DNA from: Sipunculus nudus | Taxonomy: Eukaryota > Annelida > Sipuncula > Golfingiida > Sipunculidae | Length of the DNA stretch: 64,000 nt | NCBI GenBank assembly: GCA_026874595.1 | Contig: CM049319.1 | Location: 2,942,601 to 3,006,600 of the forward strand | Reading direction: 5' to 3' | Shown: one piece after another, positions 34,701 to 62,241 of the stretch | How positions within the stretch are numbered: position 1 is the stretch's first letter | How the letters are laid out: each line of letters starts with the position of its first letter | The notes under the pieces: model-generated | The model's database searches: none | Seen by the model: the letters and a program-made list of their open reading frames with translations, nothing else | Told to the model about the DNA's origin: nothing | Made by a program: the position numbers and the translations under genes

Positions 34701-37252
34701 AACATAATTGAGGCTATATATGATTATACTTTATTATTTAAAAAAGCGAAACTCTTTTTGCATGTCAGAGTTCACATGCCAGAGTTTACGACCCACACAC
34801 CTGTAGGGAAAGGGAATGGACCTAACGCACAGGAACATATATGTAGAATCAAGTCAGGTTAATTTCTTTTTATGCTAAGTTTAATCGAAATATTTAAAAC
34901 TGGAATTATAACTGGAAATATCGATTTTTTAATATTTTATATTTTATTTGATGTGTAAATAACCAGCTGTTGGTACTGATTACTGAATCACAAAAAGCGA
35001 CTGGCTTGACATTCCCTGGGAAACAAAAGAATACATGTTGACACACAAATGAACATGTGTACATGCATGTCAGAATAATTTTTCAGCTGATGATACACTG
35101 TGACAGGCGGGTAGAAGAATTTACCATGACAGGATGATGACTGACAGTATAGCAAACACAATTACGATTATGTACCTATTGTATGCATATGATCTTTGGC
35201 TCAGCGGAATCGCAATTATCAAATCTTAACAATTTTTTCCCAAAAGCTCTAACTTAATATGCAACAATGTCCTGGGGAAATCTCCTTTAAAATGTTAAAC
35301 TATGTCTATCGTGAACTATAGAAAAATCTCCTTTGAAAAGTTAAACAATGTCATGGTGAACTATATTGAAACCTCCGTTGAAATGTTGATCGAGGTCATG
35401 GTGAACTTGATTGAAATCTTTGAAATGTTAAGTTAGATCATGGTGAACTATATTGAAATCTCCTTTGAATGTCAAATTAGTTCATCCTTAACTATATTGA
35501 AATCTCCTTTGAAATGTTGAACTAGGTTTTTGTGAACTTTATTGAAATTTCCTTCGAAATGTTAAATTAGGTCATGGTTAACTATTTTGAAATCTCTTTT
35601 GATATGTTGAATTTGGTCATGGTGAACTATATTGAAATATCCTTTGATATGTTAAACTAGATTATGGTGAACTATAATGAAATCTCCTTTGAAATGTAAT
35701 ATTAAGTCATGGTTATCTATATTCTGCGAATTAAGGGAAAACATGACTTTGACCACCGTTAGTTTTCTTAGTGTTCAGGGTTCATTGACATTAATAAAAA
35801 TGACAATATAGCCCATAGGCCAGTGGAGGTAAAACTCCCCCCCCCCCCCCCATCCTCCCGGAGGAGATTTTTTAAGACCCTAATTTTCTTATACCTAGAG
35901 ATCCCTAGTTTTTTTAAAATGAATGTTTTGCACTTGAAACAAAGCATATTTTTCGAAAAATGGCCCTTTTATCAAACCGCGTCAAAGTGCGAAGTCTTCG
36001 ACTTACGGAGATCGGCTAAGGGGGTATCGACTGTAAACTCCTTAATATTAACCCCTTTATGCCTTAAAATGATCGATATGACTGTGTTTGTATTTGGATG
36101 TGTTACTTGCTTATTAAATGCAGTTATATCCAATTCACAAAATAATATTGAAATGTTGGTAGTTGAAACAATGTCGGTATTTCGAGAAATGGCAATTTTA
36201 TTATATCGTGTCAAAGTGTCGGGTTCGCGGCTGAGGGAAATGAGTAACGGGGTATGGTCACAGAATCGACTGTAACTTGCTTAATACCAGTCCTTTAGTT
36301 TTGAAAGAACCACCATTTAACTCCTCTCTTATTGCTCAATAATGCAGATGTAAATGTGCATGTATATGGATGAATAACATGCATATTAAGGGTAGTAATG
36401 TCCAATTCAAAGAATAATTTTGTTTTTTTTTTTGCACGTTTAAAACCAAACGTTTAGACACAATAAATTGTTTGATTTTACTTTATTATTTGAGTTATTT
36501 TTTGTTTCTTATGGTTCATAGGTTATGTAAAGTAATGGTCTGTTTATAAAACCTAGTCAAAGTGGAAGGGCTTAAGGAAGGAGGAAACGGGGTATGATCA
36601 CTAAAATCTAAAATCAACTATAACTTCCGAATAAATAGGTCTAGGAACCATGGAATAAGTACCAATTTATATTTTTTATTGCTGAATAAGACAGATATAA
36701 ATTGGTGTAGAAACTGCAGTGACAACTAGGGGCAATTATTTTCAGGATTCACAGCCTGGAAAGTTGGATATGAGAGTGATGTCCCTTCGTGGGTGTGTGT
36801 TTTTTTTTTGTCATTAAGAACATGAGCAATTTCGACATAATTGCGGTATCAATTAACTTAAGAAACCTACAAGAAATGAAAATCCTTGTCCTAAAATTTC
36901 AAAGAGTAGGCCAATGCCCCCTTAATAATAGATTTATTATACATTTTATGAATTGTCCTTTAAACAGAAATCATCAAACATAGTCGGGGCTCCTTATACT
37001 TGATCCATGGGATTTGTAGTTGTAGGGGATTTGTAGTTGGTCACAAATCAAAACACCTCCTGACCAACTACAAATCCCCTGGATCAACTATAAGGAGCCC
37101 CGATAAGACCACTCAGTGTTCCTTACGAGTGAGGGTCCGTAGGGGCCCTTACGTAACAGAGCTGTCGACCACAAGTAAGTGTGTTTAAGTCCTGAAATAT
37201 ATGTATTACAGCTCCTAGTATTAGTTGAGCACTTTAAAACCCCATGGTTTTG

Positions 37253-37298
<46 letters not shown>

Positions 37299-40200
37299 GG
37301 TACTTATTCCATGATCCTACGAAAATCATTAAGGAACTTTCTTTCAGCAAAGAGCATGACAATTTGACACGGTTTGATAAACAGGCCGTTGCTCCAAAAT
37401 ATCACATTGTTTCAACTACCAACATTACTTTTCATAACTAAGGGATCATAGAAAAAAAGAACTGAGATTGTGAAGTAAAATTAAACAATTTATTGTATCC
37501 AAACGTGTCCAAAAATTTGCATAAAATTAAAAAAAAAATCTAAATTATTTTCAATATTGGATATAATTTCTCTTAATGAGCATGTAATTCATCCAAATAC
37601 ATGCATATTTATATCTAACTTATTTAAAAATAAGAGAGGAGTAAAACGGTGCTTATTTCGTTACCAAAGGACTAGTATTAAGGAAGTAACAGTCGATTCT
37701 GTGACCATATCCTGTTCCCTCAGCCGCGAACCTTGCATTTTAACGCGGTATCATAAAAGGGCCATTTCTCTAAAAATCGACATTGTTTCAACTACCAACA
37801 TTAATTTTGATTATTTAGGGACATATGAAAACGATAAAAAAAACAATAGATCATATGGATTTTCTTCGCAATCTGAGCTTATGTTATTGTTTTAAGGTCC
37901 CTAAATTAGAAAATTAACGTCAAAATTTATGGTAAAAAAATACGCACACTTCCAAAAAAATCCAAAATAATTTTGTGAATTGGATAAAACTGCATTTAAT
38001 AAGCAAGTAACACATCCAAATACAAACACAGTTACATCTGTCATGTTCAGGTATAAAAGATAAGTAAAATGGTGTTTATTTTACTATCATTGGGTTAATA
38101 TTAAGGAAGTTAAATTCAATACCCCCTTAACCGATTTCAATCAGTAACAATCTTGGCATTTTGACGCGGTTTGATAAAAAGTCAGCCTTGTTTCAAGTTC
38201 AAACATTCATTATGTCAAACTAGGGACCTCTAGATATACAAAAATTAGTGTCTAGAAAATCTTCCCCTCGAGCGGGGGGGGGGGGGGGGGTGGGGATGTA
38301 TACCCCTAATGGTGTAAAGACTAATGTGATTTGTTGGTTCATTAAAGTCTGGTGTCTGATTTTCATATTTGAGACTAACACCAATATTGCACAGTTTAGG
38401 CATAATCGACCCAACAAGATTTTTTTTCAGATATTTCAACTAAAGTTGTTATTTTGCACCGATATTTGTTTCTGTTATCTTTCTCGAATATCGCGAATTT
38501 GAAACCCTCGCGAACAAAAGATAACCACAGTATTAAGCCTAGTGTAAGTGGTCCATCGCCAGGGTCTCATGTGGAAGATTAATTTTTTTTCAGAAAGACT
38601 CACCTGGAGAGAAGCAGAAGGGAAGTGTAGGAACGAGAGCAAGGACCTCTACAGTAACCTTGACAACCATGGGGTCAAGGACGTTGGTTTGACCGGAGAT
38701 TCGTGGACGGTCTGGACCGGAGCAAGGCGGGAGGACTTTAACACTCCGCGCTGGATCAATGGATCAGACGTTGGTAAGCTTGAGCTTTGTTTCGGGGGGG
38801 GGGGGGGGGGTTAAATCGTTTTGAGCAATATGTATTTGCTTTTATGTCCATGTTTTCCTTAACTTACGGACATTGACTTGACCGCAATGGAAAGGCGCCC
38901 GTAGAAGTGAGGTTGTAGATCTTGGGAAATATATATCCATATATATATATATATATATTTTATATATGCATATGTATGTACGTATCTCGAATTTAAAATT
39001 AGCATAACTGTAAAGTATTGTGTTCCAGACCTGACCATGCTATCTTACTACACCAAAGGTGACGAAACACCCATATGTGGCTATCTCCACACACGGGATA
39101 ATACCCTGGAGCTGCAAAGCTGTGATGTACAGCATATAGGATACCTATGTCAGATACCTGGTGAGCACACTACAATGATGGTAAAGATAAATCAGAAACA
39201 CTAAAATAAGGGTCGATATACACCAGATACCTGATGAGTACACTATAATGATGGTCCATATACATCAGATACCTGGTGAGAACACTATAAGGATGATCAA
39301 TATACATCAGATACCTGTTGAGTACACTACAATGATGGTCAATATACATCAGATGCCTGGTGGGAACATAATAACGATGGTCAATATACATCAGATACCT
39401 GGTGAGTACACTATAATGATGGTCAATATACATCAGATACCTGGTGAAAACACTATAATGATGATCAATATACATCAGATACCTGGTGAGTACACTACAA
39501 TGATTGTCAATATAAATCAGATACCTGGTAAGAACACTATAATGATGATCAATATAGATCAGATACATGCTGAGTACACTACTATGCTGGTCAATATACA
39601 TCAGATACCTGGTGAGTACACTATAATGATGATCAATATATATCAGAAACCTGGTGTAAACACTATAATGATGATCAATATACATCAAAAACCAGGTGAG
39701 TACCCTATAATGATGATCAATAAACATCAGATACCTGGTGTGTACACTGCAATGATGGTCAATATACATCAGATACCTGGTGAGTACACTACAATGGTGG
39801 TCAATATACATCAGAAACCTGGTAAGAACACTATAACGATGGTCAATATACATCAGATACCTGGTGAGTACACTACAATGATGGTCAATAGACATCAGAT
39901 ACCTGGTAATAACACTATAATGATGATCATTATACATCAGATACCTGGTAAGAACACTATAATGATGATCAATATACATCAGAAACCTGGTAAGAACACT
40001 ATAATGATGGTCAATTTACATCAGATACCTGGTGAGAACACTATAATGATGATCAATATACATCAGATACCTGGCGAGAACACTATAATAATTATCAATA
40101 TACATCAGATACCTGGTGTGTACACTACAATGATGGTCACTATACATCAGAAACCTGGTAAGAACACTATAACGATGGTCAATTTACATCAGATACCTAG

Positions 40201-43200
40201 TGTGTACACTACAATGATGATCAATATACGTCAGATACCTGGTGAGAACACTATAACGATGGTCAATATACATGAGATACCTAGTGTGTACATTACAATG
40301 ATGATCAATATACGTCAGATACCTGGTCAGAACACTATAACGATGATCAATGTACATCAGATACCTGGTGAGTACACTACAATGAAGGTCAATATACATC
40401 AGAAACCTGGTAAGAACACTATAACGATGGTCAATATACATCATATACCTAGTGTGTACACTATAATGATGATCAATATACATCAGAAACCTGGTAAGTA
40501 CACTATAATGATGGTCAATATACATCAGATACCTGGTGAGAACACTATAATGATGATCATTATACATCAGATACCTGGTGTGTACACCACAATGATGATC
40601 AATATACATCAGAAACCTGGTAAAAACACTATAACGATGGTCAATATACATGAGATACCTAGTGTGTACACTACAATGATGATCAATATACATCAGATAC
40701 CTGGTGAGAACACTATAATGTGGTTGATCAATATACATCAGATACCTGGTGAGAACACTATAATGATGATCAATAGACATCAGATACCTGGTGAGAATAC
40801 TATAACGATGGTCAATATACATCAGATACCTGGTGTGTACACTACAATGATGATCAAAATACATCAAATATCAGGTGAGAACACTATAATGATCATCAAT
40901 ATACATCAGTTACATGGTGAGTAAACTACAATGATGGTCAATAGACATCAGATACCTGGTGAGAACACTATAACGATGGTCTATATACATCAGATACCTG
41001 GTGAGTACAGTACAATGATAGTCAATATACATCAGATACCTGGTAAGAACACTATAATGATGATCAATATGCATCAGATACCTGGTGAGTACACTACAAT
41101 GATGGTCAATAGACATCAGATACCTGGTAAGAACACTATAATGATGATCAATATACATCAGATACCTATTGTGTACTCTACAATGATGGTCAATATACAT
41201 CAGATACCAGGTGAGAACATTATAATGATGCTCAATATACATCAGATACCTGGTGAGTACACTACAATGATGGTCAATAGATATCAGATACCTGGTTCAA
41301 TCGGGAACACTAAAACGATGGTCAATATACATGAGATACCTAGTGTGTACACTACAATGATGATCAATATACATCAGATACCTGGTGAGAACACTATAAT
41401 GTGGTTGATCAATATACATCAGATACCTGGTGAGAACACTATAATGATGATCAATAGACATCAGATACCTGGTGAGAATACTATAACGATGGTCAATATA
41501 CATCAGATACCTGGTGTGTACACTACAATGATGATCAAAATACATCAAATACCAGGTGAGAACACTATAATGATCATCAATATACATCAGTTACATGGTG
41601 AGTAAACTATAATGATGGTCAATAGACATCAGATACCTGGTGAGAACACTATAACGATGGTCTATATACATCAGATACCTGGTGAGTACAGTACAATGAT
41701 AGTCAATATACATCAGATACCTGGTAAGAACGCTATAATGATGATCAATATGCATCAGATACCTGGTGAGTACACTACAATGATGGTCAATAGACATCAG
41801 ATACCTGGTAAGAACACTATAATGATGATCAATATACATCAGATACCTATTGTGTACTCTACAATGATGGTCAATATACATCAGATACCAGGTGAGAACA
41901 TTATAATGATGCTCAATATACATCAGATACCTGGTGAGTACACTACAATGATGGTCAATAGATATCAGATACCTGGTTCAATCGGGAACACTAAAACGAT
42001 GGTTAATATACATCAGATTCCTGGTGAAAACACTATAATGATGATCAATATACATCAGAAACCTGGTAAGAACACTATAATGATGGTCAATATACATCAG
42101 ATACCTGGTGATAACACTATAATGATGATCAATATACATCAGGTACCTGGTGAGAACACTATAATGATGATCAATATACATCAGATACCTGGTGTGTACA
42201 CTACAATGATGCTCAATATACATCAGAAACCTGGTAAGAACACTATAACGATGGTCAATATACATCAGATACCTAGTCAGAACACTACAATGATAATCAA
42301 TATACATCAGAAACCTGGTAAGAACACTATAACGATGGTCAATTTACATCAGATACCTTATGTGTACACAAGAATGATGGTCAATATACATCAGATACCT
42401 GAGGTGTACACTACAATGATGATCATTGGACATCAGATACCTGGTGAGAATACTATAACGATGGTCAATATACATCAGATATCTGGTGTGTACACTACAA
42501 TGCTGATCAAAATACATCAAATACCAGGTGAGATCACTAAAATGATGATCAATATACATCAGATACATGGTGAGTAAACTACAATGTTGGTCAATAGCCA
42601 TCAGATACCTGGTGAGAACATTATAACGATGGTCTATGTACATCAGATACCTAGTGAGTACACAACAATGATAGTCAATATACATCAGATACCTGGTAAG
42701 AACACTATAATGGTGATAAATATACATCAGATACCTGGTTAGTACACTACAATGATGGTCAATAGACATCAGAGACCTGGTAAGAACACTATAATGATGA
42801 TCAATATACATCAGATACCTAGTGTGTACTCTACAATGATGGTCAATATACATCAGATACCAGGTGAGAACACTATAATGATGCTCAATATACATCAGAT
42901 ACCTGGTGAAAACACTATAATGGTGGTCAATATACATCATATACCTGGTGTAAACACTTTAATGATGATCAATATACATCAGATACCTGGTGAGAACACG
43001 ATAATGATGATCAATATACATCAGATACCTGGAGAGAATACTATAATAATTATCAATATACATCAGATACCTGGTGTGTACACTACAATGATGGTCACTA
43101 TACATCAGAAACCTGGTAAGAACACTATAACGATGTTCAATTTACATCAGATACCTAGTGTGTACACTACAATGATGATCAATATACGTCAGATACCTGG

Positions 43201-46200
43201 TGAGAACACTATAACGATGGTCAATATACATGAGATACCTAGTGTGTACATTACAATGATGATCAATATACGTCAGATACCTGGTCAGAACACTATAACG
43301 ATGATCAATGTACATCAGATACCTGGTGAGTACACTACAATGAAGGTCAATATACATCAGAAACCTGGTAAGAACACTATAACGATGGTCAATATACATC
43401 ATATACCTAGTGTGTACACTATAATGATGATCAATATACATCAGAAACCTGGTAAGTACACTATAATGATGGTCAATATACATCAGATACCTGGTGAGAA
43501 CACTATAATGATGATCATTATACATCAGATACCTGGTGTGTACACCACAATGATGATCAATATGCATCAGAAACCTGGTAAAAACACTATAACGATGGTC
43601 AATATACATGAGATACCTAGTGTGTACACTACAATGATGATCAATATACATCAGTTATCTGGTGAGAACACTATAATGTGGTTGATCAATATGCATCAGA
43701 TACCTGGTGAGAACACTATAATGATGATCAATAGACATCAGATACCTGGTGAGAACACTATAACGATGGTCAATATACATCAGATACCTGGTGTGTACAC
43801 TACAATGATGATCAAAATACATCAAATACCAGGTGAGAACACTATAATGATCATCAATATACATCAGTAACATGGTGAGTAAACTACAATGATGGTCAAT
43901 AGACATCAGATACCTGGTGAGAACACTATAACGATGGTCTATATACATCAGATACCTGGTGAGTACACTACAATGATAGTCAATATACATCAGATACCTG
44001 GTAAGAACACTATAATGATGATCAATATGCATCAGATACCTGGTGAGTACACTACAATGATGGTCAATAGACATCAGATACCTGGTAAGAACACTATAAT
44101 GATGATCAATATACATCAGATTCCTATTGTGTACTCTACAATGATGGTCATTTATACATCAGATACCAGATGAGAACATTATAATGATGCTCAATATACA
44201 TCAGATCCCTTTTGAGTACACTACAATGATGATCAATAGACATCAGATACCTGGTTCAATCGGGAACACTATAACGATGGTTAATATACATCAGATTCCT
44301 GGTGAAAACACCATAATGATGATCAATATACATCAGATACCTGGTGAGTACACTACAATGATAGTCAATATACATCAAAAACCTGGTAAGAACACTATAA
44401 TGATGATCAATATACATCAGATACCTGGTGAGTACACTATAATGATTGTCAATATACACCAGACACCAGGTTAGAACACTATGATGATGATCAATATACA
44501 TCAGATACCTAGTCACAACACTATAATGATGATCAATAGACATCAGATACCTTGTGAGTACACTACAATGATAGTCAATATACATCAGATACCTGGTGAG
44601 AACACTATAATGATGATCAATATAGATCAGACACATGGTGAGTAAACTATAATGATGGTCAATATACATCAGATACCTGGTGAGTACACTTTAATGATGG
44701 TCAATATACATCAGATACCTGGTGAGAACTCTATAATGATGATCAATATAACTCAAATACCTGGTGAGTACACTACAATGATGGTCAATATACATCAGAT
44801 ACCTGGTGTGAACACTATAATGATGATCAATATACATCAGAAACCTGGTAAGAACACTATAATGATGGTCAATGTACATCAGATACCTGGTGAGAACACT
44901 ATAACGATGGTCAATATACCTCAGATACCTGGTGTGTACACTACAATGATCATCAAAATACATCAAATACCAGGTGAGTACACTAAAATGATGGTCAATA
45001 TACATCAGATACCTGGTGTGAACACTACAATGATTATCAATATACATCAGAAACCTGGTGAGAACACTATAATGATGATCAAAAGACATCAGATACCTCG
45101 TGAGAATACTATAACGATGGTCAATATACATCAGATACCTGGTGTGGACACTACAATGATGATCAAAATACATCAAATACCAGGTGAGTACACTATAATG
45201 ATGATCAATATACATCAGATACCTGGTGAGTAAACTACAATGATGGTCGATAGACATCAGATACCTGGTAAGAACACTATAATGATGATCAATATACATC
45301 AGATACCTAGTGTGTACTCTACAATGATGGTCAATATACATCAGATACCAGGGGAGAACACTATAATGATGGTCAATAGACATCAGATACCAGGTGAGAA
45401 CACTATAACTATGGTCAATATACATCAGATACCTGGTGAATACACTACAATGATAGTCAATATACATCAGATACCTTGTAAGAACACTATAATGATGATC
45501 AATATAGATCAGACACATGGTGAGTACACTATAATGATGGTCAATATACATTAGATACCTGGTGAGTACACTATAATGATGGTCAATAGACATCAGATAC
45601 CTCGTAAGAACACTATAATGATGATCAATATACATCAGATATCTGGTGTGTACACTACAATGCTGATCAAAATACATCAAATACCAGGTGAGATCACTAA
45701 AATGATGATCAATATACATCAGATACATGGTGAGTAAACTACAATGATGATCAATATACATCAGATACCTGGTGAGAACATTATAACGATGGTCAATAGA
45801 CATCAGATACCTGGTGTGAACACTATAACGATGTCTATATACATCAGATACCTGGTGAGTACAGTACAATGATAGTCAATATACATCAGATACCTGGTAA
45901 GAACACTATAATGATGATCAATATACATTTGATACCTGGTGAGTACACTACAATGATGGTCAATAGACATCAGATACCTGGTAAGAACACTATAATGATG
46001 ATCAATATAGATCAGACACATGGTGAGTACACTATAATGATGGTCAATATACATCAGATACCTGGTGAGTACACTATAATGATGGTCAATATACATCAGA
46101 TACCTGCTGAGAACTCTATAATGATGATCAATATAACTCAAATACCTGGTGAGTACACTACAATGATGGTCAATATACATCAGATACCTGGTGAGAACAT

Positions 46201-49200
46201 TATAATGATGATCAAAATACATCAAATACCAGGTGAGTACACTAAAATGATGGTCAATATACATCAGATACCTGGTGTGAACACTAAAATGATGATCAAT
46301 ATACATCAGAAACCAGGTGAGAACACTAAAATGATGATCAACAGACATCATATACTTCGTGAGAATACTATAACGATGGTCAATATACATCAGATACCCC
46401 ATGTGTACTCTACAATGTTGGTCAATATACATCAGATACCAGGTGAGAACACTATAATGATGCTCAATATACATCAGATACCTGGTGAAAACACTATAAT
46501 GATGATCAATATACATCATATACCTGTTGAGAACACTTTAATGATGATCAATATACATCAGATACCTAGTGTGTACTCTACAATGATGGTCAATATACAT
46601 CAGATACCAGGTGAGAACACTATAATGATGCTCAATATACATCAGAAACCTGGTGAGAACACTATAATGATGATCAAAAGACATCAGATACCTCGTGAGA
46701 ATACTATAACGATGGTCAATATACATCAGATACCTGGTGTGGACACTACAATGATGATCAAAATACATCAAATACCAGGTGAGTACACTATAATGATGAT
46801 CAATATACATCAGATACCTGGTGAGTAAACTACAATGATGGTCGATAGACATCAGATACCTGGTAAGAACACTATAATGATGATCAATATACATCAGATA
46901 CCTAGTGTGTACTCTACAATGATGGTCAATATACATCAGATACCAGGGGAGAACACTATAATGATGGTCAATAGACATCAGATACCAGGTGAGAACACTA
47001 TAACTATGGTCAATATACATCAGATACCTGGTAAATACACTACAATGATAGTCAATATACATCAGATACCTTGTTAGAACACTATAATGATGATCAATAT
47101 ACATCAGATATCTGGTGTGTACACTACAATGCTGATCAAAATACATCTAATACCAGGTGAGATCACTAAAATGATGATCAATATACATCAGATACATGGT
47201 GAGTAAACTGCAATGATGATCAATATACATCAGATACCTGGTGAGAACATTATAACGATGTTCAATAGACATCAGATACCTGGTGTGAACACTATAACGA
47301 TGGTCTATATACATCAGATACATGGTGAGTAAACTACAATGATGATCAATATACATCAGATACCTGGTGAGAACATTATAACGATGGTCAATAGACATCA
47401 GATACCTGGTGTGAACACTATAACGATGGTCTATATACATCAGATACCTGGTGAGTACAGTACAATGATAGTCAATATACATCAGATACCTGGTAAGAAC
47501 ACTATAATTATGATCAATATACATTTGATACCTGGTGAGTACACTACAATGATGGTCAATAGACATCAGATACCTGGTAAGAACACTATAATGATAATCA
47601 ATATACAACAGATACCTAGTGTGTACTCTACATTGATGGTCATTATACATCAGATACCTAGTCACAACACTATAATGATGATCAATAGACATCAGATACC
47701 TGGTGAGTACACTACAATGATAGTCAATATACATCAGATACCTTGTAAGAACACTATAATGATGATCAATATAGATCAGACACATGGTGAGTACACTATA
47801 ATGATGGTCAATATACATCAGATACCTGGTGAGTACACTATAATGATGGTCAATATACATCAGATACCTGCTGAGAACTCTATAATGATGATCAATATAA
47901 CTCAAATACCTGGTGAGTACACTACAATGATGGTCAATATACATCAGATACCTGGTGAGAACATTATAACGATGTTCAATAGACATCAGATACCTGGTGT
48001 GAACACTATAACGATGGTCTATATACATCAGATACATGGTGAGTAAACTACAATGATGATCAATATACATCAGATACCTGGTGAGAACATTATAACGATG
48101 GTCAATAGACATCAGATACCTGGTGTGAACACTATAACGATGGTCTATATACATCAGATACCTGGTGAGTACAGTACAATGATAGTCAATATACATCAGA
48201 TACCTGGTAAGAACACTATAATTATGATCAATATACATTTGATACCTGGTGAGTACACTACAATGATGGTCAATAGACATCAGATACCTGGTAAGAACAC
48301 TATAATGATAATCAATATACAACAGATACCTAGTGTGTACTCTACATTGATGGTCATTATACATCAGATACCTAGTCACAACACTATAATGATGATCAAT
48401 AGACATCAGATACCTGGTGAGTACACTACAATGATAGTCAATATACATCAGATACCTTGTAAGAACACTATAATGATGATCAATATAGATCAGACACATG
48501 GTGAGTACACTATAATGATGGTCAATATACATCAGATACCTGGTGAGTACACTATAATGATGGTCAATATACATCAGATACCTGCTGAGAACTCTATAAT
48601 GATGATCAATATAACTCAAATACCTGGTGAGTACACTACAATGATGGTCAATATACATCAGATACCTGGTGAGAACACTATAATGATGATCAATATACAT
48701 AAGAACCCTGGTGAGAACACTATAATGATGGTCAATATACATCAGATACCTGGTGAGAACACTATAACGATGGTCAATATACCTCAGATACCTGGTGTGT
48801 ACACTACAGTGATGATCAAAATACATCAAATACCAGGTGAGTACACTAAAATGATGGTCAATATACATCAGATACCTGGTGTGAACACTAAAATGATGAT
48901 CAATATACATCAGAAACCAGGTGAGAACACTAAAATGATGATCAACAGACATCATATACTTCGTGAGAATACTATAACGATGGTCAATATACATCAGATA
49001 CCCCATGTGTACTCTACAATGATGGTCAATATACATCAGATACCAGGTGAGAACACTATAATGATGCTCAATATACATCAGATACCTGGTGAAAACACTA
49101 TAATGATGATCAATATACATCATATACCTGGTGAGAACACTTTAATGATGATCAATATACATCAGATACCTAGTGTGTACTCTACAATGATGGTCAATAT

Positions 49201-52200
49201 ACATCAGATACCAGGTGAGAACACTATAATGATGCTCAATATACATCAGAAACCTGGTGAGAACACTATAATGATGATCAAAAGACATCAGATACCTCGT
49301 GAGAATACTATAACGATGGTCAATATACATCAGATACCTGGTGTGGACACTACAATGATGATCAAAATACATCAAATACCAGGTGAGTACACTATAATGA
49401 TGATCAATATACATCAGATACCTGGTGAGTAAACTACAATGATGGTCGATAGACATCAGATACCTGGTAAGAACACTATAATGATGATCAATATACATCA
49501 GATACCTAGTGTGTACTCTACAATGATGGTCAATATACATCAGATACCAGGGGAGAACACTATAATGATGGTCAATAGACATCAGATACCAGGTGAGAAC
49601 ACTATAACTATGGTCAATATACATCAGATACCTGGTGAATACACTACAATGATAGTCAATATACATCAGATACCTTGTTAGAACACTATAATGATGATCA
49701 ATATACATCAGATATCTGGTGTGTACACTACAATGCTGATCAAAATACATCTAATACCAGGTGAGATCACTAAAATGATGATCAATATACATCAGATACA
49801 TGGTGAGTAAACTACAATGATGATCAATATACATCAGATACCTGGTGAGAGCATTATAACGATGTTCAATAGACATCAGATACCTGGTGTGAACACTATA
49901 ACCATGGTCTATATACATCAGATACCTGGTGAGTACAGTACAATGATAGTCAATATACATCAGATACCTGGTAAGAACACTATAATGATGATCAATATAC
50001 ATTTGATACCTGGTGAGTACACTACAATGATGGTCAATAGACATCAGATACCTGGTAAGAACACTATAATGATGATCAATATACATCAGATACCTAGTGT
50101 GTACTCTACATTGATGGTCATTATACATCAGATACCTAGTCACAACACTATAATGATGATCAATAGACATCAGATACCTGGTGAGTACACTACAATGATA
50201 GTCAATATACATCAGATACCTTGTAAGAACACTATAATGATGATCAATATAGATCAGACACATGGTGAGTACACTATAATGATGGTCAATATACATCAGA
50301 TACCTGGTGAGTACACTATAATGATGGTCAATATACATCAGATACCTGCTGAGAACTCTATAATGATGATCAATATAACTCAAATACCTGGTGAGTACAC
50401 TACAATGATGGTCAATATACATCAGATACCTGGTGAGAACACTATAATGATGATCAATATACATAAGAAACCTGGTGAGAACACTATAATGATGGTCAAT
50501 ATACATCAGATACCTGGTGAGAACACTATAACGATGGTCAATATACCTCAGATACCTGGTGTGTACACTACAATGATGATCAAAATACATCAAATACCAG
50601 GTGAGTACACTAAAATGATGGTCAATATACATCAGATACCTGGTGTGAACACTAAAATGATGATCAATATACATCAGAAACCAGGTGAGAACACTAAAAT
50701 GATGATCAACAGACATCGTATACTTCGTGAGAATACTATAACGATGGTCAATATACATCAGATACCTAGTGTGTACTCTACAATGATGGTCAATATACAT
50801 CAGATACCAGGTGAGAACACTATAATGATGCTCAATATACATCAGATACCTGGTGAAAACACTATAATGATGATCAATATACATCATATACCTGGTGAGA
50901 ACACTTTAATGATGATCAATATACATCAGATACCTAGTGTGTACTCTACAATGATGGTCAATATACATCAGATACCAGGTGAGAACACTATAATGATGCT
51001 CCATATACATCAGATACCTGGTGAAAACACTATAATGATGTTCAATATACATCATATATCTGGTGAGAACACTTTAATGATGATCAATATACATCAGATA
51101 CCTGGTGAGTACACTATAATGATGATCAATATACATAAGATACGTGGTGTGAACACTATAATTGTGGTCAATATACAACAGATTCATGGTGAGTACACTA
51201 CAATGATGGTCAATATACATCAGATACCTGGTGACAACACTATAATGATGATCAATATACATCAGACACCAGGTGAGAACACTATGATGATGCTCATTAT
51301 ACATCAGATACCTAGTCACAACACTATAATGATGATCAATAGACATCAGATACCTGGTGAGTACACTACAATGATAGTCAATATACATCAGATACCTTGT
51401 AAGAACACTATAATGATGATCAATATAGATCAGACACATGGTGAGTACACTATAATGATGGTCAATATACATCAGATACCTGGTGAGTACACTATAATGA
51501 TGGTCAATATACATCAGATACCTTGTGAGAACTCTATAACGATGATCAATATAACTCAAATACCTGGTGAGTACACTACAATGATGGTCAATATACATCA
51601 GATACCTGGTGAGAACACTATAATGATGATCAATATACATAAGAAACCTGGTAAGAACACTATAATGATGGTCAATATACATCAGATACCTGGTGAGAAC
51701 ACTATAACGATGGTCAATATACCTCAGATACCTGGTGTGTACACTACAATCATGTTCAAAATACATCAAATACCCGGTGAGTACACTAAAATGATGGTCA
51801 ATATACATCGGATACCTGGTGTGAACACTAAAATGATGATCAATATACATCAGAAACCTGATGAGAACACTAAAATGATGATCAACAGACATCATATACT
51901 TCGTGAGAATACTATAACGATGGTCAATATACATCAGATTCCTGGTGTGTACACTACAATGATGATCAATATACATTAAATACCAGGTGAGAACACTATA
52001 ATGATAATCAATATACATCAGATACATGGTGAGTAAACTACAATGATGGTCAATAGACATCAGATACCTTGTGAGAACACTATAACGATGGTCAATATAC
52101 ATCAGATACCTGGTGACAACACTATAATGATGATCAATATACATCAGACACCAGGTGAGAACACTATGATGATGCTCATTATACATCAGATACCTAGTCA

Positions 52201-55200
52201 CAACACTATAATGATGATCAATAGACATCAGATACCTGGTGAGTACACTACAATGATAGTCAATATACATCAGATACCTTGTAAGAACACTATAATGATG
52301 ATCAATATAGATCAGACACATGGTGAGTACACTATAATGATGGTCAAAATACATCAGATACCTGGTGAGTACACTATAATGATGGTCAATATACATCAGA
52401 TACCTTGTGAGAACTCTATAATGATGATCAATATAACTCAAATACCTGGTGAGTACACTACAATGATGGTCAATATACATCAGATACCTGGTGAGAACAC
52501 TATAATGATGATCAATATACATAAGAAACCTGGTAAGAACACTATAATGATGGTCAATATACATCAGATACCTGGTGAGAACACTATAACGATGGTCAAT
52601 ATACCACAGATACCTGGTGTGTACACTACTATCATGTTCAAAATACATCAAATACCCGGTGAGTACACTAAAATGATGGTCAATATACATCGGATACCTG
52701 GTGTGAACACTAAAATGATGATCAATATACATCAGAAACCTGATGAGAACACTAAAATGATGATCAACAGACATCATATACTTCGTGAGAATACTATAAC
52801 GATGGTCAATATACATCAGATTCCTGGTGTGTACACTACAATGATGATCAATATACATTAAATACCAGGTGAGAACACTATAATGATGATCAATATACAT
52901 CAGATACATGGTGAGTAAACTACAATGATGGTCAATAGACATCAGATACCTTGTGAGAACACTATAACGATGGTCTATATACATCAGATACATGGTGAGT
53001 ACAGTACAATGATAGTCAATATACTTCAGATACCTGGTAAGAACACTATAATGATGATCAATATACATCAGATACCTGGTGAGTACACTACAATGATGGT
53101 CAATAGACATCAGATACCTCGTAAGAACACTAAAATGATGATCAATATACATCAGATACCTATTGTGTACTCTACAATGATGGTCAATATACATCAGATA
53201 CCAGGTGAGAACATTATCATGATGCTCAATATACATCAGATACCTGGTGAGTACACTACAATGATGGTCAATAGACATCAGATACCTGGTTCAATCGAGA
53301 ACACTATAACGATGGTCAATATACATCAGATACCTGGTGAAAACACCATAATGATGATCAATATACATCAGATACCTGGTGAGTACACTACAATGATAGT
53401 CAATATACATCAGATACCTGGTAAGAAAACTATAATGATGATCAATATACATCTGATACCTGGTGAGTACACTACAATGATGGTCAATAGACATCAGATA
53501 CCTGGTAAGAACACTATAATGATGATCAATATACATCAGATACCTAGTGTGTACTCTACAATGATGGTCAATATACATCAGATACCAGGTGAGAACACTA
53601 TAATGATGCTCAATATACATCAGATACCTGGTGAAAACACTATAATGATGATCAATATACATCATATACCTGGTGAGAACACTTTAATGATGATCAATAT
53701 ACATCAGATACCTGGTGAGTACACTATAATGATGATCAATATACATAAGATACGTGGTGTGAACACTATAATGGTGGTCAATATACAACAGATTCATGGT
53801 GAGTACACTACAATGATGGTCAATATACATCAGATACCTGGTGACAACACTATAATGATGATCAATATACATCAGACACCAGGTGAGAACACTATGATGA
53901 TGCTCATTATACATCAGATACCTAGTCACAACACTATAATGATGATCAATAGACATCAGATACCTGGTGAGTACACTACAATGATAGTCAATATACATCA
54001 GATACCTTGTAAGAACACTATAATGATGATCAATATAGATCAGACACATGGTGAGTACACTATAATGATGGTCAATATACATCAGATACCTGGTGAGTAC
54101 ACTATAATGATGGTCAATATACATCAGATACCTGCTGAGAACTCTATAATGATGATCAATATAACTCAAATACCTGGTGAGTACACTACAATGATGGTCA
54201 ATATACATCAGATACCTGGTGAGAACACTATAATGATGATCAATATACATAAGAACCCTGGTGAGAACACTATAATGATGGTCAATATACATCAGATACC
54301 TGGTGAGAACACTATAACGATGGTCAATATACCTCAGATACCTGGTGTGTACACTACAGTGATGATCAAAATACATCAAATACCAGGTGAGTACACTAAA
54401 ATGATGGTCAATATTCATCAGAAACCTGGTGAGAACACTAAAATGATGATCAACAGACATCATATACTTCGTGAGAATACTATAACGATGGTCAATATAC
54501 ATCAGATACCTGGTGTGTACACTACAATGATGATCAATATACATTAAATACCAGGTGAGAACACTATAATGATGATCAATATACATCAGATACATGGTGA
54601 GTAAACTACAATGATGGTCAATAGACATCAGATACCTTGTGAGAACACTATAATGATGCTCAATATACATCAGATACCTGGTGAGTACACTACAATGATG
54701 GTCAATAGACATCAGATACCTGGTTCAATCGAGAACACTATAACGATGGTCAATATACATCAGATACCTGGTGAAAATACCATAATGATGATCAATATAC
54801 ATCAGATACCTGGTGAGTACACTACAATGATAGTCAATATACATCAGATACCTGGTAAGAAAACTATAATGATGATCAATATACATCTGATACCTGGTGA
54901 GTACACAACAATGATGGTCAATAGACATCAGATACCTGGTAAGAACACTATAATGATGATCAATATACATCAGATACCTAGTGTGTACTCTACAATGATG
55001 GTCAATATACATCAGATACCAGGTGAGAACACTATAATGATGCTCAATATACATCAGATACCTGGTGAAAACACTATAATGATGATCAATATACATCATA
55101 TACCTGGTGAGAACACTTTAATGATGATCAATATACATCAGATACCTGGTGAGTACACTATAATGATGATCAATATACATAAGATACGTGGTGTGAACAC

Positions 55201-58200
55201 TATAATGGTGGTCAATATACAACAGATTCATGGTGAGTACACTACAATGATGGTCAATATACATCAGATACCTGGTGACAACACTATAATGATGATCAAT
55301 ATACATCAGACACCAGGTGAGAACACTATGATGATGCTCATTATACATCAGATACCTAGTCACAACACTATAATGATGATCAATAGACATCAGATACCTG
55401 GTGAGTACACTACAATGATAGTCAATATACATCAGATACCTTGTAAGAACACTATAATGATGATCAATATAGATCAGACACATGGTGAGTACACTATAAT
55501 GATGGTCAATATACATCAGATACCTGGTGAGTACACTATAATGATGGTCAATATACATCAGATACCTGCTGAGAACTCTATAAAGATGATCAATATAACT
55601 CAAATACCTGGTGAGTACACTACAATGATGGTCAATATACATCAGATACCTGGTGAGAACACTATAATGATGATCAATATACATAAGAAACCTGGTAAGA
55701 ACACTATAATGATGGTCAATATACATCAGATACCTGGTGAGAACACTATAACTATGGTCAATATACCTCAGATACCTGGTGTGTACACTACAATGATGAT
55801 CAAAATACATCAAATACCAGGTGAATACACTAAAATGATGGTCAATATACATCAGATACCTGGTGTGAACACTAAAATGATGATCAATATACATCAGAAA
55901 CCAGGTGAGAACACTAAAATGATGATCAACAGACATCATATACTTCGTGAGAATACTCTAACGATGGTCAATATACATCAGATACCTGGTGTGTACACTA
56001 CAATGATGATCAATATACATTAAATACCAGGTGAGAACACTATAATGATGATCAATATACATCAGATACATGGTGAGTAAACTACAATGATGGTCAATAG
56101 ACATCAGATACCTTGTGAGAACACTATAACGATGGTCTATATACATCAGATACCTGGTGAGTACAGTACAATGATAGTCAATATACATCAGATACCTGGT
56201 AAGAACACTATAATGATGATCAATATACATTTGATACCTGGTGAGTACACTACAATGATGGTCAATAGACATCAGATACCTGGTAAGAACACTATAATGA
56301 TGATCAATATACATCAGATACCTAGTGTGTACTCTACATTGATGGTCAATATAGATCAGATACCAGGTGAGAACACTATAATGATGGTCAACAGACATCA
56401 GATACCTGGTGAGAACACTATAACGATGGTCAATATACATCAGATACCTGGTGAGTACACTATAATGATGATCAATATACATCAGATACCTGGTGAATAC
56501 ACTACAATGATAGTCAATATCCATCAGATACCTGGTAAGAACACTATAATGATGATCAATATAAATCAGATACCTGGTGAGTACACAACAATTATAGTCA
56601 ATGTACATCAGATACCTGGTAAGAACACTATAATGATGATCAATATACATCAGATACCTGGTGAGTAAACTACAATGATTGTCAATATACATCAGACACC
56701 AGGTGAGAACACTATGATGATGATCAATATACATAAGATACCTGGTCACAACACTATAATGATGATCAATAGACATCAGAAACCTGGTGGGTACACTACA
56801 ATGTGGTCAATATACATCAGATACCTGGTAAGAACACTATAATGAAGATCAATATAGATCAGACACATGGTGAGTACACTATAATGATGGTCAATAAACA
56901 TCAGATACCTGGTGAGTACACTATAATGATGGTCAATATAGATGAGATACCTGGTGAGAACACTATAATGATGATCAATATACATCGTATACCTGGTAAG
57001 TACACTATAATGATGATCAATATACATCAGATACCTGGTGACAACACTATAATGATGATCAATATACATCAGATACCTAATTAGAACACTATAATTATGA
57101 TCAATATACATCAGATACCTGGTGAGAACACTATAATGATGGGCAGTATACATCAGATACCTAATTAGAACACTATAATGATGATCAATATACATCATAT
57201 ACCTGGTAAGTACACTATAATGATGATCAATATACATCAGATACCTGGTGAGAACACTACAATGATGGGCAGTATACATCAGATACCTAATTAGAACACT
57301 ATAATGATGATCAATATACATCAGATACCTGGTGAGAACACTATAATGATGGGCAGTATACATCAGATACCTAATTAGAACACTATAATGATGATCAATA
57401 TACATCAGATGCCTGGCGAGTACACTAAAATGATGGTCAATATACATAAGATACCTGGTGAGTACACTACAATGATGGTCAATATACATCAGATACCTGG
57501 TGTGAACACTATAATGATGATCAATATACATCAGATACCTGGTGAGTACACTACAATGATGTTCAATATACATCAGTTACCTGGTGAGAACACTATTATG
57601 ATGATCCATATACATCAGATACCTGGTGAGTACACTATAATGATGGTCAATATACATCAGATACCTTGTGAGAACTCTATAATGATGATCAATATACCTC
57701 AAATACCTGGTGAGTACACTACAATGATGGTCAATATACATCAGATACCTAGTGAGTACACTACAATGATGATCAATATACAGCAGATACCTGGTGAGAA
57801 CACTATAATGATGATCAATATACATCGTTCTATGTTCTAATATAATGCTCTTATTTTTAATTATTATCCTCTTGATCACAATGTGACAGGCAAGGACACG
57901 GACGATATTTATATTTTTATTTCAGCCTCTAGAACATAAAACTTCCCCGCCTGTCTTATAGAATCTTTCCCAGTGTTTAATATTCGCCGCACAATCTTGA
58001 TGTTTACAGCAATGACCAATATCAAGTAATAAATGTATATTTTCATGATGTAGGCAATGTCTGTCCAGAAACCAATTTTCGTTAACCCTCCCATTAAAAT
58101 CATGCACCTATACAGACCGGTCACCTTAAGTCAGATTTAATCCAGTGTGATTTTTTTTCCCAGATTTTTCGCAGCAGAAAATCTGATTAGGAAGATATAA

Positions 58201-58206
58201 GTACCT

Positions 58207-58265
<59 letters not shown>

Positions 58266-61200
58266 GGGGGGGGGGGGCATTTATTCAACTAACATAGTAG
58301 ATTTTATTATGAGCTACCATCTGAGTAGGTCGATGATCTTGAATCTTAGTTCAAGATGTACCGAATATACAACCTCCATCTGTAGTGACATGAGGTACCG
58401 AATATACAACCTCCATCTGTAGTGACATGATGTTCCGAATATACAACCTCCATCTGTAGTGACATGAGGTAACGAATATACAACCTCCATCTGTAGTGAC
58501 ATGAGGTACCGAATATGCAACCTCAATCTGTAGTGACATGATGTACCGAATATACAACCTCCATCTGTAGTGACATGATGTACCGAATATACAACCTCCA
58601 TCTGTAGTGACATGAGGTTCCGAATATACAACCTCCATCTGTAGTGACATGAGGTACCGAATATACAACCTCCATCTGTAGTGACATGAGGTACCGAATA
58701 TACAACCTCCATCTGTAGTGACATGATGTACCGAATATGCAACCTCCATCTGTAGTGACATGATGTACCGAATATGCAACCTCCATCTGTAGTGACATGA
58801 TGTACCGAATATGCAACCTCCATCTGTAGTGACATGAGGTACCGAATATACAACCTCCATCTGTAGTGACATGAGGTACCGAATATACAACCTCCATCTG
58901 TAGTGACATGATGTACCGAATATACAACCTCCATCTGTAGTGACATGATGTACCGAATATACAACCTCCATCTGTAGTGACATGATGTACCGAATATACA
59001 ACCTCCATCTGTAGTGACATGATGTACCGAATATACAACCTCCATCTGTAGTGACATGATGTACCGAATATACAACCTCCATCTGTAGTGACATGATGTA
59101 CCGAATATACAACCTCCATCTGTAGTGACATGATGTACCGAATATACAACTTCCATCTGTAGTGACATGAGGTACCGAATATAGAACCTCCATCTGTAGT
59201 GACATGAGGTACCGAATATAGAACCTCCATCTGTAGTGACATGAGGTACCGAATATAGAACCTCCATCTGTAGTGACATGAGGTACCGAATATACAACCT
59301 CCATCTGTAGTGACATGATGTACCGAATATACAACCTCCATCTGTAGTGACATGATGTACCGAATATACAACCTCCATCTGTAGTGACATGATGTACCGA
59401 ATATACAACCTCTATCTGTAGTGACATGATGTACCGAATATACAACTTCCATCTGTAGTGACATGAGGTACCGAATATACAACCTCCATCTGTAGTGACA
59501 TGAGGTACCGAATATAGAACCTCCATCTGTAGTGACATGAGGAACCGAATATACAACCTCCATCTGTAGTGACATGAGGTACCGAATATAGAACCTCCAT
59601 CTGTAGTGACATGATGTACCGAATATACAACCTCCATCTGTAGTGGCATGATGTACCGAATAGACAACCTCCATCTGTAGTGACATGAGGTACCGAATAA
59701 GCAACCTCCATCTGTAGTGACATGAGGTACCGAATATACAACCTCCATCTGTAGTGACATGATGTACCGAATATACAACCTCCATCTGTAGTGACATGAT
59801 GTACCGAATATACAACCTCCATCTGTAGTGACATGATGTACCGAATATACAACCTCCATCTGTAGTGACATGATGTACCGAATATACAACCTCCATCTGT
59901 AGTGACATGATGTACCGAATATACAACCTCCATCTGTAGTGACATGATGTACCGAATACACAACCTCCATCTGTAGTGACATGATGTACCGAATACACAA
60001 CCTCCATCTGTAGTGACATGAGGTACCGAATATACAACCTCCATCTGTAGTGACATGAGGTACCGAATATACAACCTCCATCTGTAGTGACATGATGTAC
60101 CGAATATACAACCTCCATCTGTAGTGACATGATGTACCGAATATACAACCTCCATCTGTAGTGACATGATGTACCGAATATACAACCTCCATCTGTAGTG
60201 ACATGATGTACCGAATATACAACCTCCATCTGTAGTGACATGATGTACCGAATATACAACCTCCATCTGTAGTGACATGAGGTACCGAATATACAGCCTC
60301 CATCTGTAGTGACATGATGTACCGAATATACAACCTCCATCTGTAGTGACATGATGTACCGAATATACAACCTCCATCTGTAGTGACATGATGTACCGAA
60401 TATACAACCTCTATCTGTAGTGACATGATGTACCGAATATACAACTTCCATCTGTAGTGACATGAGGTACCGAATATACAACCTCCATCTGTAGTGACAT
60501 GAGGTACCGAATATACAACCTCCATCTGTAGTGACATGAGGAACCGAATATACAACCTCCATCTGTAGTGACATGAGGTACCGAATATAGAACCTCCATC
60601 TGTAGTGACATGATGTACCGAATATACAACCTCCATCTGTAGTGGCATGATGTACCGAATAGACAACCTCCATCTGTAGTGACATGAGGTACCGAATAAG
60701 CAACCTCCATCTGTAGTGACATGAGGTACCGAATATACAACCTCCATCTGTAGTGACATGATGTACCGAATATACAACCTCCATCTGTAGTGACATGATG
60801 TACCGAATATACAACCTCCATCTGTAGTGACATGATGTACCGAATATACAACCTCCATCTGTAGTGACATGATGTACCGAATATACAACCTCCATCTGTA
60901 GTGACATGATGTACCGAATATACAACCTCCATCTGTAGTGACATGATGTACCGAATATACAACCTCCATCTGTAGTGACATGATGTACCGAATATACAAC
61001 CTCCATCTGTAGTGACATGATGTACCGAATACACAACCTCCATCTGTAGTGACATGAGGTACCGAATATACAACCTCCATCTGTAGTGACATGAGGTACC
61101 GAATATACAACCTCCATCTGTAGTGACATGATGTACCGAATATACAACCTCCATCTGTAGTGACATGATGTACCGAATATACAACCTCCATCTGTAGTGA

Positions 61201-62241
61201 CATGATGTACCGAATATACAACCTCCATCTGTAGTGACATGAGGTACCGAATATACAACCTCCATCTGTAGTGACATGAGGTACCGAATATACAGCCTCC
61301 ATCTGTAGTGATATGATGTACCGAATATACAACCTCCATCTGTAGTGACATGAGGTAACGAATATACAACCTCCATCTGTAGTGACATGAGGTACCGAAT
61401 ATACAACCTCCATCTGTAGTGACATGAGGTAGCACAAAGGAAGGGTGTATTCTAAAACAATAATAATAGCCTAATATCTGCCATGAAAAATGTTCTCATT
61501 ATAATTCACAGCAATTCTGACTTTAAGACTGTGATTAGTATAGTATAGGCGGGCCCCTGGAACCAACCAATGAACGATGACCCCCTAATGAACTCATATT
61601 GAGAACGATTTCGTTATTTCACAGATTTTAATAGTGAATAAAACATATATGTGGAGGTTTATAATTCGATATCACCCACGATGTTGGGCTCTCTCCTACT
61701 GTACACTTTGCCTCTCTGTTACATTTCGTAGGGTTATTTGGTATACATTTGCCTCGCGTCCATGACCAATACCCATTCATAGCTGGGTGGAGAGAGTGCC
61801 CTCAGGTGGTCATAGCGAGGAAGGTGTGAACGAGACGCGAACCCACGAACTTGTGAACCCAAATCCAGGGCCTTATTAAACCATTACGCCAACTACCCAT
61901 CACAAATGTTGGTAAACTGCCTTAACAAGAATCAAGAACACTATAATTTTAATCAAAATGTTAACTTGAAATTCATGTTTTATTTTAAGGATGTACCCTT
62001 TGTCCCAGAGGCCTGTACGATTATCAGTGTTTCTCCTTGGACAACAATTGTTACGTGAACTTCTGTGGTATAGACAACTGGTATTCGGCCAGAGACACCT
62101 GTGCTCGTCGCGGATGGACGCTGACATTGATAAAATCTAAGACCCTTATTAGCAGTGTGGCGGGGAAACTGTACAAATCCACGGACAACAAACCGTGCAA
62201 GACCTTCTGGGTCGGCTTCAGGACGGCCGACTGGTTTGATG
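31642..62241 (+). CDS. C-type lectin-like domain protein gene (5' part, four exons)
   Basis: Join 31642-31711, 38594-38773, 39029-39160, 61990-62241. All introns are GT-AG and phase 1, and the joined frame is open for 211 codons plus one base. Residues 1-21 form a signal peptide with likely cleavage after VQA. CTLD1 spans about 24-127 with outer Cys pair 35/124 and inner pair 100/115. CTLD2 begins at Cys129 and has its first half (CY at 148-149, W158-A161-C165 helix, WVGF at 201-204). N37 and N79 are N-glycosylation sequons. Neither domain half shows the EPN/QPD or WND calcium-sugar motifs, so classical sugar binding is doubtful. Phase-1 joints suit domain shuffling. I expect a secreted or receptor-like protein, perhaps immune-related, but that is inference. 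The rest of CTLD2 and any transmembrane part lie downstream. Introns are 6882, 255 and 22829 bases. Confidence 0.88.
31915..32900 (+). repeat. Diverged repeats in intron 1
   Basis: 31920-32060 contains GTCCGTCATTCGTCCATCCG, a low-complexity tract of a style common in bivalve dispersed repeats. TCGCGCCACCTGCATC near 32230 recalls the 1-1255 satellite. ATGGTTTCATCTA-ATGAAACCTT phrases repeat near 32320 and 32460. No exon was seen between exon 1 and exon 2 here. Confidence 0.5.
32901..33599. other. Intron 1 DNA, nothing recognised
   Basis: Contains loosely repeated phrases (TTGGACTGGGCGG/TTGGTCCAAACC near 32950-33010 and GGCAACAGGCCAAG/GGCAACAGGTCAAG near 33393-33470), but no coding potential. 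Confidence 0.5.
33600..34165 (+). repeat. ~127-bp tandem satellite in intron 1, related to 1-1255
   Basis: Units begin CTTATTTCTCAGGAG near 33719 and 33846 and CTTATCTCTCATGAG near 33972. Each contains TTTGATATAT-AGCCT, a GGATAGCTTCG-TGTA stretch and GGTGGCGCCACCTAC or GCGGCGCCACCTAC, the palindromic core of the satellite at the left edge of the window. About four diverged units. Confidence 0.8.
34166..35265. other. Intron 1 DNA, nothing recognised
   Basis: A 93-codon plus frame (34370-34651) overlaps a minus frame of similar size; neither has a domain. AT-rich otherwise. Confidence 0.55.
35266..35725 (+). repeat. ~45-bp minisatellite in intron 1
   Basis: About ten diverged units of the type GTCATGGTGAACTATATTG followed by AAATCTCCTTTGAAATGTT. 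Divergence between units is much higher than in the intron 3 arrays, so this is an older array. Confidence 0.88.
35825..38292. mobile_element. 2.5-kb foldback-type inverted repeat in intron 1
   Basis: The left arm (about 35825-36680) reappears reverse-complemented as the right arm (about 37290-38292). Examples are TATCAAACCGCGTCAAAGTG near 35972 against its near complement at 38158-38177; TTTGTATTTGGATGTGTTAC near 36087 against GTAACACATCCAAATACAAA near 38008; and CATGGAATAAGTACCA near 36649 against TGGTACTTATTCCATG near 37299. Each arm holds about three diverged ~300-bp subrepeats, and the tips are a C run (35837-35851) and a G run (38274-38290). The ~600-bp centre has (TA)n at 37258-37297 and a separate hairpin. 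There is no transposase. The frames at 35823-36275 and 37557-37895 are arm sequence. Confidence 0.82.
36984..37103. repeat. 120-nt nested hairpin at the foldback centre
   Basis: Outer arms TCGGGGCTCCTTATACTTG (36984-37002, continuing ATCC) and GGATCAACTATAAGGAGCCC (37081-37100, then CGA) pair with one mismatch. Inner arms GGGGATTTGTAGTTGGTCA (37024-37042) and TGACCAACTACAAATCCCC (37062-37080) pair perfectly over 19 bp. An extra GGGATTTGTAGTTG (37010-37023) duplicates part of the inner arm. Confidence 0.85.
38594..38773 (+). CDS. Lectin gene exon 2: first half of CTLD1
   Basis: Acceptor TTTTTTTTCAG ends at 38593; donor GTAAGC starts at 38774. Residues 24-83 include LTWREAEGKCRNES (helix 1 with W28, A31 and C35), WTVWTGARR (61-69, the WIGL-like core) and W77-I-N-G. 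Phase 1 at both ends, 180 bases. The usual N-terminal strand of a CTLD is nearly absent: helix 1 begins three residues into the exon. Either this is a short CTLD or a small upstream exon in intron 1 was missed. The open frame continuing upstream to 38548 lies before the acceptor and is intronic. Confidence 0.88.
38794..38810 (+). repeat. 17-base G run just after the exon 2 donor
   Basis: An uninterrupted G run starts 20 bases into the 255-base intron 2. G runs close to a 5' splice site can bind splicing factors or fold as quadruplexes; here it may simply be a mutable homopolymer. Intron 2 also has a (TA)n tract near 38939-38960. Confidence 0.8.
39029..39160 (+). CDS. Lectin gene exon 3: second half of CTLD1
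   Basis: Acceptor TTGTGTTCCAG ends at 39028; donor GTGAGC starts at 39161. Residues 84-127 give C100, the strand L110-E-L, C115-D and the terminal YLCQIP with C124, completing the four-cysteine CTLD pattern. The region has no WND motif. The last ten bases, CAGATACCTG, are also the first ten bases of the 42-bp minisatellite that fills the next intron. Reading through the donor would add about a dozen residues before TAA at 39202-39204. Confidence 0.88.
39151..57830 (+). repeat. 18.7-kb minisatellite of 42-bp units derived from the exon 3 splice junction
   Basis: About 440 units; landmarks in each are CAGATACCTGGTGAG, AACACTATAATGATG and TCAATATACAT. Unit starts are at 39151 (in exon 3), 39193, 39224 (a shortened unit) and 39266, then every 42 bases. 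Variants replace GGTGAG with GGTAAG, GGTGTG, AGTGTG or CAGGTGAG; occasional units carry +6 (GGTTCAATCGAGAAC type, e.g. near 41297 and 53290) or +3 (ATGTGGTTGATC, near 40718 and 41400). Because 42 is 14 codons and the consensus lacks stops in one frame per strand, open frames reach 720 codons (49817-51979, plus) and 734 codons (51074-53278, minus). These are Met/Ile/His-rich or Tyr/His-rich repeats without domains, inside an intron, and I do not call them genes. Higher-order blocks repeat at offsets such as 714, 882 and 2604 bases. Confidence 0.95.
57841..58356. other. Spacer between the two intron 3 minisatellites
   Basis: Contains a 61-codon Cys/His-rich minus frame (58107-57922) whose TGA stop is followed directly by AATAAA on that strand; no domain recognised. 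(TA)n occupies 58209-58262 and a G run 58264-58277. Confidence 0.6.
58357..61436. repeat. 3.1-kb minisatellite of 37-bp units
   Basis: About 83 units with landmarks CCGAATATACAACCTCCATC and TGTAGTGACATGATGTA. Common variants are ATGAGGT for ATGATGT, and ATATAG, ATACAC or ATAAGC for ATATAC. As 37 is not a multiple of three, three units (111 bases, 37 codons) make one coding period. The minus strand lacks stops in all phases of the consensus, giving spurious frames of up to 1028 codons. A 27-unit higher-order repeat is visible: 59412-60407 and 60411-61406 correspond at an offset of 999 bases. No unit resembles the 42-bp array. Confidence 0.95.
61440..61734. other. Intron 3 DNA, nothing recognised
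   Basis: Anonymous AT-rich sequence between the 37-bp array and the SINE. Confidence 0.6.
61735..61905 (-). mobile_element. tRNA-derived SINE in intron 3
   Basis: Read on the minus strand: A box TGGCGTAATGG (61891-61881) and B box-like GGTTCGCGTC (61842-61833) at tRNA-like spacing, then a body with CCACCTGAGGGCACTC and CCCAGCTATGAATGGGTA. The 'ATGAATGGGTA' body after a tRNA head is a pattern I associate with invertebrate SINEs. It lies about 85 bases before exon 4. Ends and target duplications are uncertain. Confidence 0.6.
61990..62241 (+). CDS. Lectin gene exon 4: first half of CTLD2
   Basis: Acceptor TTTTATTTTAAG ends at 61989; donor GTGAGG starts at 62242. Residues 128-211 carry an N-terminal Cys pair (129, 132) and C141, which suggests a long-form CTLD; CY at 148-149; the helix NWYSARDTCARRGW; LTLI; and FWVGFRTADWFDG, the WIGL-like strand. 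Phase 1 at both ends and 252 bases. Domain layout parallels exon 2, whose second half was in a separate exon. The frame would otherwise stop at 62319-62321 beyond the donor. Missing parts are the C-terminal half with the remaining cysteines. Confidence 0.87.

Follow-up and report, generated by a model that had tools for sequence, protein, structure and literature searches.

The window analysed here is a stretch of 64,000 nucleotides from the sipunculan Sipunculus nudus (G000:C14:2942601-3006600, in a searched assembly of 1.43 Gb and 153 contigs), and it harbours a C-type lectin gene on the forward (+) strand. Exon 2 (38594-38773, +) is in phase 1 on both sides and ends at the donor gtaagc. Exon 3 (39029-39160, +) lies between the acceptor ttccag and the donor gtgagc, is followed by a phase-1 intron and encodes a peptide closing in GYLCQIPG, while exon 4 (61990-62241, +), with the acceptor ttttaag and the donor gtgagg, is by its sequence the predicted start of a second lectin domain. 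In a profile search the joined translation of exons 2-4 is recognised as Pfam PF00059 (Lectin_C) over residues 2-101 with 33.3 bits, against a curated cut-off of 22.6 bits. The last bases of exon 3, CAGATACCTG (39151-39160), encode the QIPG that follows the final cysteine of the CTLD, and the donor GTGAGC comes next. The exon 3/4 junction is predicted to be in phase 1 on both sides, across an intron 3 of 22,829 bp. Several tandem repeats lie in the window: a minisatellite of 10 copies of a 45-bp unit upstream in the lectin gene region (35277-35723), two long-period repeats (280 bp x 4.5 at 1-1244 and 197 bp x 5.0 at 5848-6826), and, within intron 3 itself, a minisatellite of 83.2 copies of a 37-bp unit with 97% matches (58355-61431), which is unrelated to the array described below.

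Intron 3 opens with a 42-bp minisatellite that is contiguous with its host exon and whose repeat unit carries that exon's own splice donor. The first unit (unit 0; 39151-39192, +) is the junction itself, made of 10 exon and 32 intron bases, and agrees with the array consensus at 37/42 positions. Unit 1 (39193-39223, +) is a remnant of 31 bp that lacks 11 bases of the consensus (TACCTGGTGAG) and has no donor; a full unit follows at 39224, and the remainder of the array (39224-57826, +) comprises 442 units and one trailing base. Segmentation, in which the first two units were set by hand and a final row of 1-2 bases was dropped before counting, yields 444 units over 18,676 bp (39151-57826) including the junction, with 207 distinct unit sequences, whereas TRF alone reports 442.7 copies at 39197-57826. 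The initial annotation had described the unit as the end of exon 3 together with its donor and had put some 440 of them into an 18.7-kb array in intron 3, and both statements are borne out by this anatomy. It had also placed the first two units at 39151 and 39193; the former start stands, and a unit is present at the latter position, but as a donorless 31-bp remnant rather than a full copy.

The best ungapped match to the junction segment elsewhere in the window, with bases 39151-58300 excluded, has 17 mismatches on the forward and 18 on the reverse strand, so that the likeness between junction and array is not a matter of chance. Genome-wide, a pattern search that registers exact matches only located 45 copies of the unit's 30-base core, 44 in the window and one at the junction of a paralogue, and a DNA search queried with the junction of the window gene returned 14 matches, all of them at these two loci. 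When the paralogue's array served as the query, the DNA search recovered only itself and missed the window, and diverged copies elsewhere could escape in the same manner. A dispersed repeat or mobile element of the introner kind was rejected, the exact core being confined to two loci, with that proviso about diverged copies. Intron gain by tandem duplication of AGGT was likewise rejected: the consensus unit has CTGGTGAG and no AGGT, and the intron position is also found in lectin exons that have no array.

The paralogue emerged from a protein search of the genome with exon 3, which gave 54 matches at E values up to 10 but only two strong ones, the window gene (3e-26) and the paralogue (1e-24), the next best being at 7.5e-5. 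Its exon 3 lies 182.5 kb downstream (G000:C14:3164150-3164284) and is 93% identical over the 45-aa exon. The two lectin regions are co-linear duplicates whose blocks match in order; the blocks holding exons 2, 3 and 4 are 79.3-86.3% identical, and examples away from these exons are a 948-bp block at 70.7% and a 1,155-bp block at 68.6%. The paralogue's intron 3 measures 1,945 bp, opens with the same junction and contains a 14-unit array of the 42-bp unit, which stops in the same phase as the array in the window (...CAATATACATC). The initial annotation had envisaged a short orthologous intron with a single unit; a short intron does exist, albeit in a paralogue instead of an orthologue, and it holds 14 units rather than one. 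Copy number thus stands at 444 in one paralogue and 14 in the other, within a single assembly. Between the two genes, exons 2-4 show 18 synonymous and 22 non-synonymous differences and are equal in length. Because dN/dS is 0.31 and there are no stops or frameshifts in these exons, both genes look functional, and splicing in both presumably works despite the array.

Other features of the duplicates and of the wider lectin family can be noted alongside. The paralogue's counterpart of the 37-bp minisatellite is, by eye, a diverged and unexpanded stretch, in which the best ungapped match to the unit has 16/37 mismatches. In the next exon beyond the window (L012:1221-1520) the paralogue's end reads CCAAATG|GTAAGT and the window gene has CCAAACGGAAGG, the next phase-1 donor of the window gene, again by eye, being ACG|GTAAGA, 15 bases further. 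Forty of the 54 lectin exon matches, mostly weak ones, fall on a single other contig (C12), an indication that it carries a large lectin cluster. A protein search for relatives elsewhere produced 15 candidates, none at E 0.01.

The lectin family also bears on the question of which came first, the junction or the repeat. Thirty of the 54 matches were compared with 1.5 kb of flanking sequence, the two focal exons and 28 others. When the first phase-1 GT downstream of the final cysteine is accepted, a lenient criterion, all 28 others have one within six codons, at three residues in 19 cases, at one in eight (including L043, which can also be read as three) and at two in one. Two of them, L017 and L018, have CQIP as in the focal gene. 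In none of the 28 does a TRF array extend across the donor GT, and in none is the exon's own 20-base junction repeated with fewer than six mismatches in the next 400 bases. Since every one of these exons has the phase-1 GT and none has the array, the exon 3 junction is most likely older than the repeat, with the array derived from the junction. Together with the paralogue, whose array starts in the same way, the comparison sustains the origin from a functional exon-intron junction that the initial annotation had proposed.

The opposite order, in which an array was first present in the intron and its edge then overwrote the original end of exon 3 by gene conversion or unequal exchange, appears improbable. 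Exchange as such is possible, for the paralogue's junction unit (P0) is identical to window unit 11 (at 39602) at 42/42 positions and to the window junction at only 36/42. Moreover, the first three paralogue units, P0-P2, fit best at window units 11-13, a fit matched by 27 of 5,000 random orders; it is, however, a single triple out of 12, and it had been noticed prior to testing. The remaining 11 triples gave no signal when set against the order of the window array (at least 53 of 500 random orders equalled each), and overall co-linearity of the two arrays was rejected, P0-P2 alone standing out. We take the fit as a hint of unit loss or gain beside the exon, and a former array unit may now be serving as the paralogue's real junction. 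In a FastTree phylogeny of 71 edge, junction and paralogue units the two loci are mixed, and with 42 columns its root is uninformative. Against an overwritten exon end stands the ordinary character of that end within the family, seen in the phase-1 GT of all 28 other exons and the CQIP of two of them, and an outside repeat would have had to supply the right codons, the right phase and a donor by luck.

The interior of the array bears traces of growth from within. Repeated runs, defined as at least eight units that recur elsewhere in the array with each unit at least 40/42 identical, number 35, and runs of 8-28 units take in 339 of the 444 units; the longest comprises 28 units at 99.2% identity. 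Both edges, units 0-20 and 408-443, fall outside every run. The clearest example of block growth is a stretch of 17 units present twice in tandem with no differences (47231-48658, +; 47231-47944 and 47945-48658). A strict alternation of two unit types was considered and rejected, identity at a lag of two units (0.865) lying within the 0.84-0.87 seen at other lags up to 60. The picture that these runs suggest is an interior built largely by internal block duplication, between edges that would be older. That the length is in part an artefact of assembly, with blocks gained or lost in the joining of long reads, is similarly improbable. The 17-unit block duplicated without any difference could be so explained, but 34 of the 35 runs do differ (by 0.2-3.3%) and they recur at many different lags, as real repeated duplication would give. 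The small array of the paralogue, in addition, supports the origin of the repeat irrespective of how long the large array really is.

Turning to the donors within the array, the GT is retained in 411 of 444 units and the fuller motif G|GTRAG in 264. The GT pair is kept in 92.6%, compared with a mean of 82.2% across 41 pairs of neighbouring bases, and ranks ninth, which leaves room for some constraint. The nine-column donor stretch as a whole is, however, the most variable of the 42 circular windows of the unit, and the mean entropy of its columns (-3 to -1, +1, +2, +4 and +5, leaving out two columns in which acceptable letters replace one another) is 0.55, compared with 0.36 in the 33 columns outside. 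Maintained donors should show conserved columns, and nothing indicates that the donors of the array are kept as such. Scored with a hand-entered donor matrix, 153 of the 443 donors in the array equal or exceed the real one. The GT is missing from three of the first five units after the junction compared with 30 of 438 later ones (Fisher p 0.0034), or from three of the first four (units 1, 2 and 4, in 39193-39349; Fisher p 0.0014), and this deficit near the exon is the most extreme among 41 pairs of neighbouring bases. Donors close to the exon could thus be other than neutral. Selection against decoy donors near the exon is not claimed, since the pattern was seen before it was tested, one of the losses stems from the deletion that shortened unit 1, and the first seven post-junction units of the paralogue all retain their GT.

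Coding use of the array was also considered. The consensus unit is open in the frame of the exon and its 42 bases are a multiple of three, but read-through from exon 3 in the window runs into a stop in unit 1, 13 codons beyond the junction codon, and there are further in-frame stops inside the array. Non-consensus rates at the three codon positions (0.120, 0.096 and 0.053) are unlike those of a constrained coding repeat, and coding use was rejected. A functional array, whose donor copies would act as binding sites for U1 snRNP or be used alternatively, extending exon 3 by 14 codons at a time, could appeal to the abundance and strength of the retained donors, to the open reading frame and to the human ABCA7 VNTR, the length of which correlates with skipping of exon 19 and the second unit of which carries a donor that has been observed in use in the accessible part of the report (PMC5954066), but it is very unlikely in view of the higher entropy of the donor columns and of the stops that read-through encounters.

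The explanation we strongly favour is that of a minisatellite that arose from the junction of exon 3 and intron 3 before the gene duplication, has grown to 444 units in the window and probably evolves neutrally. In the order of events that we infer, a 42-bp segment of 10 exon and 32 intron bases, donor included, would have been duplicated in tandem in the ancestor of the two neighbouring lectin genes, an ancestor whose array began with a single unit. Such a duplication would be tolerable: the first donor still closes the exon at the right place, and splicing from a second consensus donor would insert 14 stop-free codons. The gene region would then have been duplicated in its turn, leaving one copy that now has 14 units and the window copy with 444, much of the latter probably by duplication of unit blocks within the array. 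In all likelihood the array is neutral, and the spliceosome probably picks the first donor, paired with the acceptor of exon 3 by exon definition. A more speculative addition is that of a renewable splice junction, in which array units come, in the course of time, to replace the real junction and decoy donors near the working one are inactivated; we consider it unlikely. If true, a deletion or an unequal exchange between the exon and any unit with the exon end and a donor, as a typical unit has, would rebuild a correct exon 3, and the junction of the paralogue would be a former unit resembling window unit 11.

Among the papers listed in a literature search, none described a lectin junction array. 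The initial annotation had known of no named system like it, a view that does not hold: two human repeats, as characterised in the accessible parts of the respective reports, are of the same kind (ABCA7, PMC5954066; CBS, PMC2630376). The VNTR in intron 18 of ABCA7 is built of 25-bp units that take in the donor of exon 18, and its largest allele spans 10,678 bp, or about 427 repeats (PMC5954066). Like the lectin array, it begins at the exon edge, has the exon's donor in each unit and runs to hundreds of repeats. As far as the accessible account goes, its unit opens with the donor GT and no exon bases are mentioned, whereas the lectin unit has 10 coding bases; the ABCA7 unit is out of frame at 25 bp and the lectin unit in frame at 42 bp; and ABCA7 varies in length between people, while variation of the lectin array is seen between two paralogues of a single assembly. 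In human CBS the VNTR sits at the boundary of exon 13 and intron 13. Its 31-bp unit is given as c.1444_1467+7(16_21) (PMC2630376) and by this notation comprises 24 coding and 7 intron bases, so that it crosses the exon/intron boundary as the lectin unit does, with 16-21 copies compared with the 444 and 14 of the lectin arrays.

More distant likenesses are found in other systems, each as described in the accessible part of its report. The 30-bp VNTR (TRACT) in an intron of human CACNA1C resembles the lectin array in being an intronic minisatellite of great length (3-30+ kb) whose units vary, but unlike the lectin array it is described there without derivation from a splice junction (PMC13131567). 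In the RdRp gene of potato a new intron arose from a tandem duplication across an intron-exon boundary (PMC4974935); the duplicated segment spans such a boundary in both cases, but in the lectin gene an existing intron has been lengthened, no new intron is seen and the consensus lacks AGGT. An earthworm gene has minisatellite-like repeats in its introns, the accessible account making no mention of a unit that crosses a junction (PMC12783039). Overall, the lectin array is a new and very large example of a splice-donor-spanning minisatellite, and to the known kind it adds a non-human lectin setting, coding bases in the unit at scale and a gene pair with 14 and 444 units. This pair, with exons 2-4 intact in both members, lends itself naturally to the question of how the spliceosome picks one donor out of hundreds of copies, and also to the question of whether the repeat born from a junction can supply that junction's replacement. 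Splice-donor-spanning minisatellites, described for two human genes, are thus present in a non-human lectin gene as well, and there on a larger scale.
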